A DNA stretch of 26,326 bases. Origin: a virus. The stretch spans positions 1-26,326 of the IMG/VR virus record IMGVR_UViG_3300025543_000170; one strand, written 5' to 3'. Made by a program: the position numbers and the translations under genes. This document shows, one piece after another, positions 11,338 through 23,126 of this stretch; the stretch's first letter is position 1; each line of letters opens with the position of its first letter. The notes under the pieces are model-generated. The model had not been told where the DNA came from. It worked only from the letters and a program-made list of their open reading frames with translations, and ran no database searches.

Positions 11338-13436
11338 TACATTTCCTCGTTAACTTCTTGTTGCATTGCCCCAGTGTCCAGCAGCGTCAAGCCACCAAGA
11401 GACAGCAATGGTATCGACCCTTTCATAAATTTCTTAAACACTTCGTCTTTAGACTGTCCTAGCATTTGAGACGTTACGTCCACGCGCTCATCAATTAACT
11501 CAACAATAGTTTTTGGCTCTGAGGCCAAGCCTGTTTTTTTGCCGTTGGCAAACCAGCTTAATGATTGCGCTTCGGCTGGTCTTACACCAATTTTTTCAGC
11601 CACCTTCTTATATATGTCTGAAAATATAGCATACTCAGTTTGAGTTGGCTCGCCGTTAATTTTTTGCGTTGCCAACGTGTCATTAATCATTGTGGCTGGG
11701 TCAAGGCTTGATGGGTCAGCTAGATACTGGGCGCGCATTTCTTTTGTTGCTTTAGCATTTTTGCCCCCAATAAACTCAATGGGTATAGACCCCGGCTCAA
11801 TTTCGTTCATTGCGTCAAAAACAGCACGAATTGCGTGTGTGTCGGCAGTAACGCCAGCCAGATTTCCACTTACATTTTCAGCAAAAGTCGCTGGCTTGGG
11901 GTTTGTGTTAAAATTTAAACCATCGACAGCAGCTTCATCAACCAGCTTTTTATGTATCCCACCGGGGTTAATCATCATTGGATAACCCTTTTCATTGACG
12001 CCCTCACCGCCGGGGCCAATCATTTCTGTCAAATCAACGCCGCGTTTTTGTTTGGCGGTTACCAATGAGGCATTACGCAGATTTTGTTCAGTCATTGTGC
12101 GTGGGCTAGTAGCCGCATAATTTAACGCAAATTTCTTTAGTTGTTGCCGCGCCTCTTCTTCTGGGATGCCCAGTTCCACGGCCTTATCAATTAAAGGGCC
12201 GGTATGATAAAAATATTGCACATTAGAGCCAACTAATGGCCGCGCTCTGTCAGCCAAAACATCAGAAATTTTATCTGACATTTCTATTACTTTTGCGCCT
12301 CTGTTATTTAGAGGCAGCTTCACGCCTTCTGGCGCTCGCGGAACAGGGGTATCGCTTTGCTCTGGCATATTTAATTCATAAGGGCTTTGGTTGTCTCCGG
12401 GCTTTGTCTCTAAATTAAAAATCACATTATCAGTTGATGGCTGAACTCTTTGCCCAACAGGCAATTTCATTTGTTCAGCCCTTAAATCAAGCACTGTTTT
12501 TAATTCGTCCTTGCCCCTAGCCAACTTGCCAGCCGCAGCTAACGCCGGGTCAATTACTTCCATAGGATCAGCGCCAGACATAACGCGGTCAGTAATAGGC
12601 CCGCGCTCTGCCATCCGCGCCTCGGCTGACTGCCCCGCTTGGCTTATTGCCTCACCAACAACAGGCCCAAGTTCACGCGCTAACATCTCGCCGCCCTTGA
12701 CTAAACCGCCGCCCATAGTGCCAGCAACGCCAGCAGTCAACGCAGTGCGCAGTGCGCCTGTTGCTGGGTCAATCTCTATCCCAGCTTTGCGCTCAACGCC
12801 CTGCGTTAGCTGGTCAGCAGCCCCAGCCTCAACGCCAGTATATACAGCGGCTGACGTGCCAGGGCGCTTTGCTATCTCAACTAATGCTTTTTTGATGCCA
12901 GTAGCCCCAGTCTTGCGAACCAAGAAACCAGCGCCTAATGTGCCAAAGCCAGTGTAAACGCTAGGGTCAGCAATCATACCGCGTATCATGCGAGCAGTGC
13001 CAGCTAGTGTAAAGTTAGGCAGTTGGTCATAACGATCCATAAGATAAACAAAAGACTTGGCTTGATCTTGTGAGCCGCTAGTCATTAAAGCTGCGGCCTG
13101 ACCAATGGTGCCGGGCGAGCTAATGCCACTTTCGCCGGGGATGCCAGCCGGGCCAGCAAAGTTATAATTAAACTCACCGATTGCATCTATGCCGTAGCGC
13201 GCCGCCATTTGATCGTCACCTTCAAACGGCTCACCCTCAAACAGCAAATGCACGTCACGCGCCGCTGCTGCAAACTGCGGATCAAGCAACAATTGCTTTT
13301 CAGTTACCTCTGGTGCCTCTGGCTGCACTGGGTCTGGCGGCGTATCCATTGATGGGATTTGCAGAACAGGCGGCGTGTCAACTATAACATTAGACGCAAA
13401 CCTATCATCAAACGCTCTTGCAAAATCATCGGTCAT
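11337..13436 (-). CDS. Internal virion protein
   Basis: 699 residues. The first 60 residues are acidic and proline-rich. Residues about 155-260 hold glycine- and alanine-rich hydrophobic stretches (FGTLGAGFLV, TAGVAGTMGGGLVKGG) which may enter membranes, and there is another hydrophobic patch close to the C-terminus (SIPLLSLGGLTLLD). No catalytic motif is seen. It lies between two other presumed ejection proteins, with 4-base (ATGA) and TAATG overlaps. Together these proteins probably form the internal core and the conduit through the cell envelope. Family name unknown. Confidence 0.72.
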   Translation of the reverse strand: MTDDFARAFDDRFASNVIVDTPPVLQIPSMDTPPDPVQPEAPEVTEKQLLLDPQFAAAARDVHLLFEGEPFEGDDQMAARYGIDAIGEFNYNFAGPAGIPGESGISSPGTIGQAAALMTSGSQDQAKSFVYLMDRYDQLPNFTLAGTARMIRGMIADPSVYTGFGTLGAGFLVRKTGATGIKKALVEIAKRPGTSAAVYTGVEAGAADQLTQGVERKAGIEIDPATGALRTALTAGVAGTMGGGLVKGGEMLARELGPVVGEAISQAGQSAEARMAERGPITDRVMSGADPMEVIDPALAAAGKLARGKDELKTVLDLRAEQMKLPVGQRVQPSTDNVIFNLETKPGDNQSPYELNMPEQSDTPVPRAPEGVKLPLNNRGAKVIEMSDKISDVLADRARPLVGSNVQYFYHTGPLIDKAVELGIPEEEARQQLKKFALNYAATSPRTMTEQNLRNASLVTAKQKRGVDLTEMIGPGGEGVNEKGYPMMINPGGIHKKLVDEAAVDGLNFNTNPKPATFAENVSGNLAGVTADTHAIRAVFDAMNEIEPGSIPIEFIGGKNAKATKEMRAQYLADPSSLDPATMINDTLATQKINGEPTQTEYAIFSDIYKKVAEKIGVRPAEAQSLSWFANGKKTGLASEPKTIVELIDERVDVTSQMLGQSKDEVFKKFMKGSIPLLSLGGLTLLDTGAMQQEVNEEM

Positions 13437-18731: not shown

Positions 18732-18751
18732 GGGGCCGGTTGCCCGGCCCC
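18732..18751 (-). terminator. GC-rich hairpin after the capsid/decoration genes, possible weak terminator
   Basis: A perfect 8-bp stem (GGGGCCGG with CCGGCCCC) with a GCAA loop of GNRA type lies in the 51-base gap between the putative decoration gene and tail tubular A. In the minus direction it is followed by CTTTCCC, not by a clean U run. It may stop a share of the transcripts, or protect or process RNA ends. Its place resembles the T7 terminator after gene 10. Structure seen; function inferred. Confidence 0.6.
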
Positions 18752-19879: not shown

Positions 19880-19916
19880 TTTCCTATTCCTTTGTCAAAG
19901 TTAAAACACGATTAGC

Positions 19917-20004
19917 GCCTAGCAGGTATCCTTTCGGGCTGCGGCTTGGGCATACACGCTACGCCCCCAAGCGTTTGCGACAGGTCGAAAGACGATTGTC
20001 TGTC
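19917..20004 (-). promoter_or_regulatory. Structured 5' leader of the capsid mRNA
   Basis: Between the predicted transcription start (about 20005) and the capsid ATG lie about 126 untranslated bases with three possible hairpins: GACAG (20004-20000) with CTGTC (19983-19979); GCTTGGG (19972-19966) with CCCAAGC (19950-19944); and GCC-GCAG (19945-19939) with CTGC-GGC (19923-19917), with a CC/GG pair enclosing CGAAA inside. The second and third overlap by two bases and may compete. A hairpin at the very 5' end could stabilise the message. I match it to no known riboswitch. Confidence 0.5.
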
Positions 20005-20011
20005 AATAGGG

Positions 20012-20040
20012 ATTATATGTAAAAAAGAGAGAACTGTAAA
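20012..20040 (-). promoter_or_regulatory. Near-consensus sigma70 promoter for the capsid gene
   Basis: On the minus strand: -35 TTTACA (20040-20035), 17 bases, then -10 TATAAT (20017-20012), a perfect -10 and five of six at -35. The -35 box lies inside the loop and right arm of the scaffold terminator. The start point would be near 20005, giving a 126-base leader to the capsid gene. Host polymerase is the likely user. Sequence match is direct; activity is inferred. Confidence 0.75.
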
Positions 20041-20052
20041 CAGTTCCCTCTT
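20021..20052 (-). terminator. Rho-independent terminator after the scaffold gene
   Basis: A 12-bp stem (AAGAGGGAACTG with CAGTTCTCTCTT, one G-U pair) with a TTTA loop ends in a T run on the minus strand (20026-20021). It lies five bases after the stop codon of the scaffold gene. It should stop readthrough from the packaging-portal-scaffold operon into the capsid gene, and it overlaps the capsid promoter. Confidence 0.85.
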
Positions 20053-20057
20053 GACCT

Positions 20058-22933: not shown

Positions 22934-23087
22934 GCGCCGCCCTCATATTATCAACAAGGTTAGGGTATGGACGGCCAGCCTTTGCTGCGGCTCGCTGTGC
23001 CTTGCGCTTTTGTGCTGGGGTCAAACCCTTTGGCTTGCCCAAACCTTTTGGGCGCTTCTTATCCCAAACCTCTTTTTTCTTTTGCAT
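22926..23087 (-). CDS. Small basic protein (53 aa)
   Basis: A short gene found by translation: ATG at 23087-23085, TAA at 22928-22926, 53 residues. It is lysine- and arginine-rich in the first two thirds (KKRPKGLGKPKGLTPAQKRK) and ends with AGRPYPNLVDNMRAARD, a line I associate with small marine phage proteins. The start forms TAATG with the microprotein gene upstream and the end overlaps the GTG of the next gene. Function unknown; the gene order suggests a packaging or head role. Confidence 0.75.
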   Translation of the reverse strand: MQKKKEVWDKKRPKGLGKPKGLTPAQKRKAQRAAAKAGRPYPNLVDNMRAARD

Positions 23088-23125
23088 TACTTACCGTAAC
23101 CCTTACCTTTTTTCTTTGGCATCAT
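23087..23125 (-). CDS. Microprotein, 11-12 aa (MPKKKGKGYGK)
   Basis: Two successive ATG codons (23125 and 23122) open a frame of 11-12 residues, all K, G, P and Y after the methionines, ending at TAA 23089-23087, which overlaps the next ATG (TAATG). An AGGA lies 7 bases from the second ATG. It could be a real microprotein or mainly a device to pass ribosomes on to the next gene. Small K/G-rich proteins of this look occur in other marine phages, as far as I recall. Confidence 0.5.
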   Translation of the reverse strand: MMPKKKGKGYGK

Positions 23126-23126
23126 C

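Follow-up and report, generated by a model that had tools for sequence, protein, structure and literature searches.

In the T7-like phage LUZ100, the capsid gene has a local promoter and is followed by a terminator (PMC10134795). More generally, stem-loops at the 5' and 3' ends can stabilize bacterial mRNAs (PMC7509114). Structured leaders and capsid cassettes are already known as kinds, whereas the RNA family that we describe here looks new. A search of open-access journal papers turned up no account of this leader, and no Rfam 15 family reached its gathering score in the window. Permissive scans of the gap upstream of the capsid gene and of 12 divergent relatives gave no family either; the weak matches that they returned all fell far below the gathering scores and were rejected.

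The window, by which we mean the whole stretch of 26,326 nucleotides (IMG/VR record IMGVR_UViG_3300025543_000170), belongs to a marine virus of bacteria, and all features under study lie on its minus strand (Table 1). A gap of 178 nt separates the end of the scaffold-like gene (20058) from the start of the capsid gene (19879). The first-pass annotation took it for the late region's sole long gap, which proved incorrect: another stretch of about 190 nt (22934-23126) is likewise devoid of minus-strand ORFs of at least 60 aa in the ORF list.

To place the gap among its relatives, IMG/VR was scanned with the capsid protein using five divergent queries, yielding about 330 upstream regions of which 198 are distinct leaders. 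Of the cultured relatives, Methylophilales phage MEP301 is the nearest, with a capsid that is 65% identical. Because the MEP301 genome encodes no RNA polymerase (PMC8024684), host-type promoters are expected. Two curiosities emerged among the public records. The locus-tag prefixes of Hodr (OQ414635) and Baldr (OQ414636) are swapped between the two entries. Dunaliella viridis virus SI2 is listed with an algal host, yet its capsid, 45% identical to that of the window phage, suggests a tailed phage, possibly one infecting an associated bacterium.

Table 1. Positions of genes, transcription signals and RNA elements around the capsid gene of the window
Feature	Position	Strand	Detail
Scaffold-like gene, 258 aa	20058..20834	-	PHROG 1052 head assembly, E 4e-9; upstream of the gap
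Predicted intrinsic terminator stem-loop, 12 pairs, loop TTTA, then T-run TTTTTT	20025..20052	-	AAGAGGGAACTG-TTTA-CAGTTCTCTCTT; composite conserved in relatives
-35 box TTTACA	20035..20040	-	Lies in the loop of the terminator and reaches into its 3' arm
-10 box TATAAT	20012..20017	-	17-bp spacer from the -35 box
Predicted transcript start (+1)	20005	-	Inferred from the -10 box
Hairpin P1	19979..20004	-	GACAG-ACAA-TCG[TCTTT]CGA-C-CTGTC; 4x1 internal loop ACAA/C; two-sided compensatory changes in both stems
Pseudoknot stem S1	19957..19973	-	CGCT (19973-19970) with AGCG (19960-19957); 98% of cells paired; two-sided changes in 3/4 pairs
Pseudoknot stem S2	19948..19966	-	GGGCG (19966-19962) with TGCCC (19952-19948), crosses S1; 98% of cells paired; two-sided changes in 5/5 pairs
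Hairpin P4	19923..19941	-	CAG-C-CC[GAAA]GG-ATAC-CTG; near-invariant in the window's clade, outer stem varies between clades
Shine-Dalgarno AAAGGA	19888..19893	-	Read from the sequence; capsid ATG 8 nt further on
Major capsid protein, 277 aa	19046..19879	-	PF19821, E 1.8e-73; PHROG 3437
Small gene after the capsid gene, 90 aa	18759..19031	-	PHROG 18004; function unassigned
GC hairpin	18732..18751	-	GGGGCCGG[GCAA]CCGGCCCC; strong, without a proper T-run; closes the capsid unit

A terminator fused to a promoter

The first-pass annotation proposed a 12-bp terminator sharing bases with a near-perfect promoter, and this was borne out. The stem contains G-C pairs (5 out of 12) and runs into a T-run, as expected of an intrinsic terminator, and with 12 pairs it is the longest among 21 terminator-like sites between positions 12000 and 26326. 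The promoter, TTTACA-17-TATAAT, is of the sigma70 type; it matches the consensus at 11 of 12 positions and is the best of 24 promoter-like matches in the same interval. The T-run of the terminator doubles as the 17-bp spacer of the promoter. A T7-like promoter for a phage RNA polymerase was also considered for this site and rejected, as the T7 consensus was not matched on inspection by eye.

Counts of such sites are close to chance in this interval (24 promoter-like sites versus 16.2 in shuffles, and 21 terminator-like sites versus 17.8), so the significance of the composite comes from its conservation. We scored a composite wherever a terminator hairpin had a -35 box in or beside its loop and a -10 box downstream. 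Among 120 leaders whose capsids are at least 82% identical, 44 carry it, compared with 0.2% of dinucleotide shuffles. Across all clades it was found in 48 leaders, and the spacer is 17 in 45 of these. Detection dropped to 4 of 69 in more distant leaders, which indicates that the composite is clade-specific and that insulation is not universal.

The terminator stems diverge widely among relatives (for instance, AAGAGGGAACTG/CAGTTCTCTCTT versus AATAGGCGGGG/CCCCGCCTATT) whereas the loop or its immediate flank retains a -35 box resembling TTTAC. Because the stems vary and the -35 box keeps its place, the terminator and promoter functions appear to be selected together. Such a fusion would be a compact natural insulator, retained as its stem diverges. 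The idea of a separate capsid transcription unit, put forward on first inspection, is supported. The further ideas of the first-pass annotation, that read-through and new initiation may interfere or be coupled and that capsid would be made far above portal and scaffold, are conjectural.

The placement of the promoter relative to the RNA is also conserved. In 102 of 141 leaders, hairpin P1 is immediately preceded by a -10 box that has an acceptable -35 box, versus 7.8% at shifted positions, and the gap between the -10 box and P1 has a median of 6 nt (most often the box lies 4-8 nt before the first pair). This placement puts the predicted transcript start within the 5' strand of P1. The earlier suggestion of a hairpin beginning almost at +1 agrees with this, P1 starting one position after the predicted start.

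At the other end of the unit, a strong GC hairpin lies between the small post-capsid gene and the tail tubular gene. Comparable GC hairpins with varied stem sequences were found in 184 of 208 relatives; of the control windows, which were taken within the capsid gene, 9 of 341 had one. Since most of those in relatives lack a T-run, the hairpin may stabilize or process the mRNA rather than terminate transcription.

A conserved leader RNA

Comparison of relatives defines the leader as an RNA family, which the first-pass annotation missed. Its members, spread over many phages, have a pseudoknot and an internal-loop motif that occurs twice in inverted orientation. The conserved RNA measures about 100 nt (about 200 distinct leaders) and comprises hairpin P1, an H-type pseudoknot spanning 19973-19948 and hairpin P4. 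A conserved AAG directly follows pseudoknot stem S2. Between clades, the outer stem of P4 varies (CAG/CTG, CGG/CCG, GCGA/TCGC), and P4 is often capped by a GNRA-type tetraloop. The 4x1 internal loop of P1, NNNA or NNNC facing a C, recurs in P4 turned by 180 degrees. P4 ends a median of 41 nt before the capsid ATG. Significant matches to the covariance model number one per contig, the window included, and invariably precede the capsid gene.

The first-pass annotation described a leader folding into up to three hairpins. A structured leader stands on comparative evidence; the hairpins drawn from the single sequence do not, and P1, the pseudoknot and P4 take their place. The window leader's own fold is no more stable than that of shuffled sequences (z = +0.57), so the claim of three hairpins has to rest on the comparison of relatives. 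The minimum-energy fold also gives hairpins that differ from the comparative ones, and we dropped single-sequence folding as evidence.

Covariation was assessed on several alignments. With 16 leaders aligned by MAFFT from sequence only, 97.7% of cells pair and two-sided changes occur in 11 of the 22 pairs; RNAalifold recovers P1, S2 and P4 unaided from this alignment. The values for 54 distinct rows aligned on the covariance model are 97.5% and 16 of 22, and pairing falls to 25-43% when the partners are slid as a control. Two further clades, named here after leader L075 and after MEP301, were aligned separately and follow the same plan (93.8% and 90.2% of cells paired, respectively), with an additional hairpin between P1 and the pseudoknot. 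The MEP301 clade received its own alignment (A5) because model R1 is too narrow for it (two weak matches there); its weaker spots are the outer stem of P4 (72%) and S1 (82%). Covarying pairs, including those of the pseudoknot, are found in three separately aligned clades.

We also applied a tree-aware null, using our own script written after the idea of R-scape rather than R-scape itself. In the main clade, only two pairs reached E < 0.05 over all column pairs. In alignment A4, the top six of about 4,300 column pairs are all base pairs of the structure (P1, S1 and S2). A simple descriptor requiring P1 followed by P4 matched 158 of 198 leaders versus 2.9% of shuffles. Compensatory changes thus exceed what shuffles, slides and phylogeny produce, as expected of a structured cis-acting RNA. 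The RNA family and its architecture are well supported. The first-pass annotation had stated that its proposal would fall if related phages had neither the -10 box nor compensatory changes in the stems; we found both in the relatives, so that the proposal was not refuted on this count.

Several other candidate features were rejected. A 13-codon ORF in the leader (MPKPQPERIPARR) keeps neither its start codon nor its frame in relatives. CsrA-type binding to GGA does not fit, as GGA is absent from the motif in many leaders (GGCUAACC, GGCAUACC). The window would allow the loops of P1 and P4 to pair with each other (CUUUCG/CGAAAG), but relatives do not keep this pairing. For a long CUUG...CAAG extension of S2, CUUG varies (L040, L062 and L033) and CAAG does not. 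We note that small annotated ORFs in HTVC010P (gp08) and Lederberg_17 overlap the predicted leader RNA and may be spurious calls.

Hairpins of this type extend to more distant phages. The strict P1 or P4 motif occurs in 20 of 36 distant leaders (mostly those of capsids of about 25-55% identity, of T7-like capsids and of MAG contigs), whereas about 1.2% of shuffles and none of 36 windows taken inside genes have it; the p-value computed for this count is too small because several of the 36 leaders are close kin. The carriers include HTVC010P, HTVC203P, Lederberg, Vibrio phage 1.182 and Yersinia phage YeP5, and both hairpins are present in L353, whose capsid identity is 29%. A P4-like hairpin precedes the T7-like capsid genes of cyanophages P-SSP7 (TTG-C-CCTC[CAAG]GAGG-ATAC-CAA) and P-SCSP1d and of roseophage CRP-403. 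When IMG/VR was scanned with exact patterns, 69 of 80 matches to P1 versions and 14 of 31 to P4 versions lay before homologous capsids, and many of the remaining ones lay before head genes, including those of T7-gp10-like or PHROG 267 capsids.

Unannotated genes of 306-357 aa are also among the genes that follow such matches. In six leaders (L463, L466, L470, L485, L486 and L493) the module occurs once or twice, with 16-24 nt between the closest copy and a gene of this kind, and several of these genes are preceded by a tandem hairpin pair. In L466 and L470 the gene lies directly upstream of a capsid gene of another family (PHROG 1357 and 9953). From their position, these are probable scaffold genes. 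Related capsid genes with P1- or P4-type leaders also lie on long bacterial MAG contigs (L344, a 186-kb Hyphomicrobiales contig, L352 and L353), which possibly carry prophages.

The chances seem to us evenly balanced that this previously unrecognized RNA module (a C opposite a four-base AUAA-like loop, in inverted or tandem pairs) represents a widespread form of head-gene control in tailed phages of very different bacteria (SAR11, OM43, cyanobacteria, roseobacters and gammaproteobacteria), and that some conserved partner recognizes it, for example the ribosome, a phage protein or the decay machinery. If the module serves the head genes of unrelated phages and hosts, it would point to a common post-transcriptional rule that governs how virion proteins are made and that genome annotation has overlooked.

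Proposed function and alternative explanations

On the reading that we lean towards, the gap opens a cassette dedicated to capsid expression, which would give a discrete, 5'-protected and abundant capsid mRNA. The terminator would halt read-through from portal and scaffold, so that nearly all capsid mRNA would start at +1 and carry the folded RNA at the 5' end. This compact 5' end and the 3' hairpin would shield the mRNA from 5'-end-dependent decay and favor translation, and the capsid mRNA would be long-lived as well as discrete and abundant. The cassette would be a functional parallel to T7 phi10-gene 10-Tphi and to its LUZ100 equivalent, here with a host-type promoter and a new RNA. Hundreds of capsid copies are needed per portal, and the question bears on marine podoviruses that depend on the host polymerase.

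In favor of the cassette are the conserved composite, the -10 box adjacent to P1, the covariation, the single pre-capsid copy per contig and the frequent 3' hairpin (184/208). Against it, the 3' hairpin mostly lacks a T-run and hence cannot be called a terminator with confidence. Accessibility of the Shine-Dalgarno site is no higher with the leader (0.45 versus 0.53 for shuffled leaders), and sequestration of that site by the leader is not clearly supported either. Two conserved internal-loop motifs and a pseudoknot exceed the needs of plain 5' protection, which suggests a specific partner.

The main rival is a protein-binding leader, in which the capsid, the scaffold or another phage protein would bind the two inverted motifs as a dimer and repress or activate capsid translation. 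The twofold inverted motif within a compact RNA fits such autogenous control, as do the strict linkage to capsid genes (with capsids down to about 30% identity) and the position of P4, a median of 41 nt from the start codon. However, the module also precedes probable scaffold genes and the T7-gp10-like capsid genes of other phages, so that a single conserved phage partner would need to be very widely shared; moreover, the Shine-Dalgarno site is not clearly sequestered and no candidate RNA-binding protein was identified. We consider control of this kind doubtful, though a serious competitor. Processive antitermination is less probable, and we think it unlikely. Here the nascent leader would bind RNA polymerase so that the long tail and lysis region is read, and promoter-proximal tandem hairpins with internal loops do head a long late region, much as HK022 put is a two-stem RNA that acts alone on the polymerase (PMC9378689). 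Yet the leader model has no match in HK022, and few strong minus-strand terminators lie downstream within the window. Late genes of T7-like phages are read by a single-subunit phage polymerase, and the occurrence of similar hairpins before the capsid genes of these phages, which use a different kind of polymerase, makes antitermination less likely.

The other explanations fit the data less well. A leader released by processing, to act as an RNA of its own in trans or within the virion (in packaging, for instance), is very improbable: the compact fold, strict conservation and head-gene linkage would suit such an RNA, but no terminator lies between the leader and the capsid ATG, and the RNA is always joined to the Shine-Dalgarno region, again at a median of 41 nt before the ATG. 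Slightly less probable still is a riboswitch or other ligand-sensing leader. The pseudoknot, the conserved internal loops and the 5' leader position resemble one, whereas an Rfam match is absent, the controlled gene encodes a virion protein rather than a metabolic one, and no expression platform is visible over the Shine-Dalgarno site. Independent chance signals around a non-functional leader would agree with a single-sequence fold no better than shuffles and with site counts near expectation; they are contradicted by the covariation and by all other comparative results, and we give this explanation almost no weight. The start, fold and position predicted for this conserved RNA are specific enough to be tested in the cultured relatives MEP301 (host OM43 FZCC2181) and HTVC010P (host HTCC1062).

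Comparison with described systems

The arrangement resembles T7 phi10-gene 10-Tphi in having a local promoter just before the capsid gene (here a predicted one), a hairpin at the 5' end of the transcript and the same gene order. Where T7 has Tphi, ahead of tail tubular gene A, the capsid unit here ends in a conserved strong hairpin that mostly lacks a T-run. The arrangement differs in that T7 uses a promoter for phage RNA polymerase, whereas the window has sigma70-type -35 and -10 boxes with a 17-bp spacer, and in that no terminator is annotated before phi10. The leaders of T7 genes 9 and 10 contain neither the P1 nor the P4 motif and do not match the leader model.

HK022 put also consists of promoter-proximal tandem hairpins with irregular internal loops on a phage transcript (PMC9378689); however, put belongs to early operons and has no link to capsid genes, and model R1, searched against the HK022 genome (in this direction only), had no match anywhere. 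The structured leaders and riboswitches of Rfam are alike in general kind, being conserved structured 5' leaders, here with an H-type pseudoknot, although no Rfam 15 family matches the window or the 12 divergent relatives. The stabilizing 5' stem-loops of the ompA type share with our leader a folded 5' RNA with the Shine-Dalgarno site downstream (PMC7509114), but they are plain stem-loops, whereas the leader of the window combines conserved internal-loop motifs with a pseudoknot.
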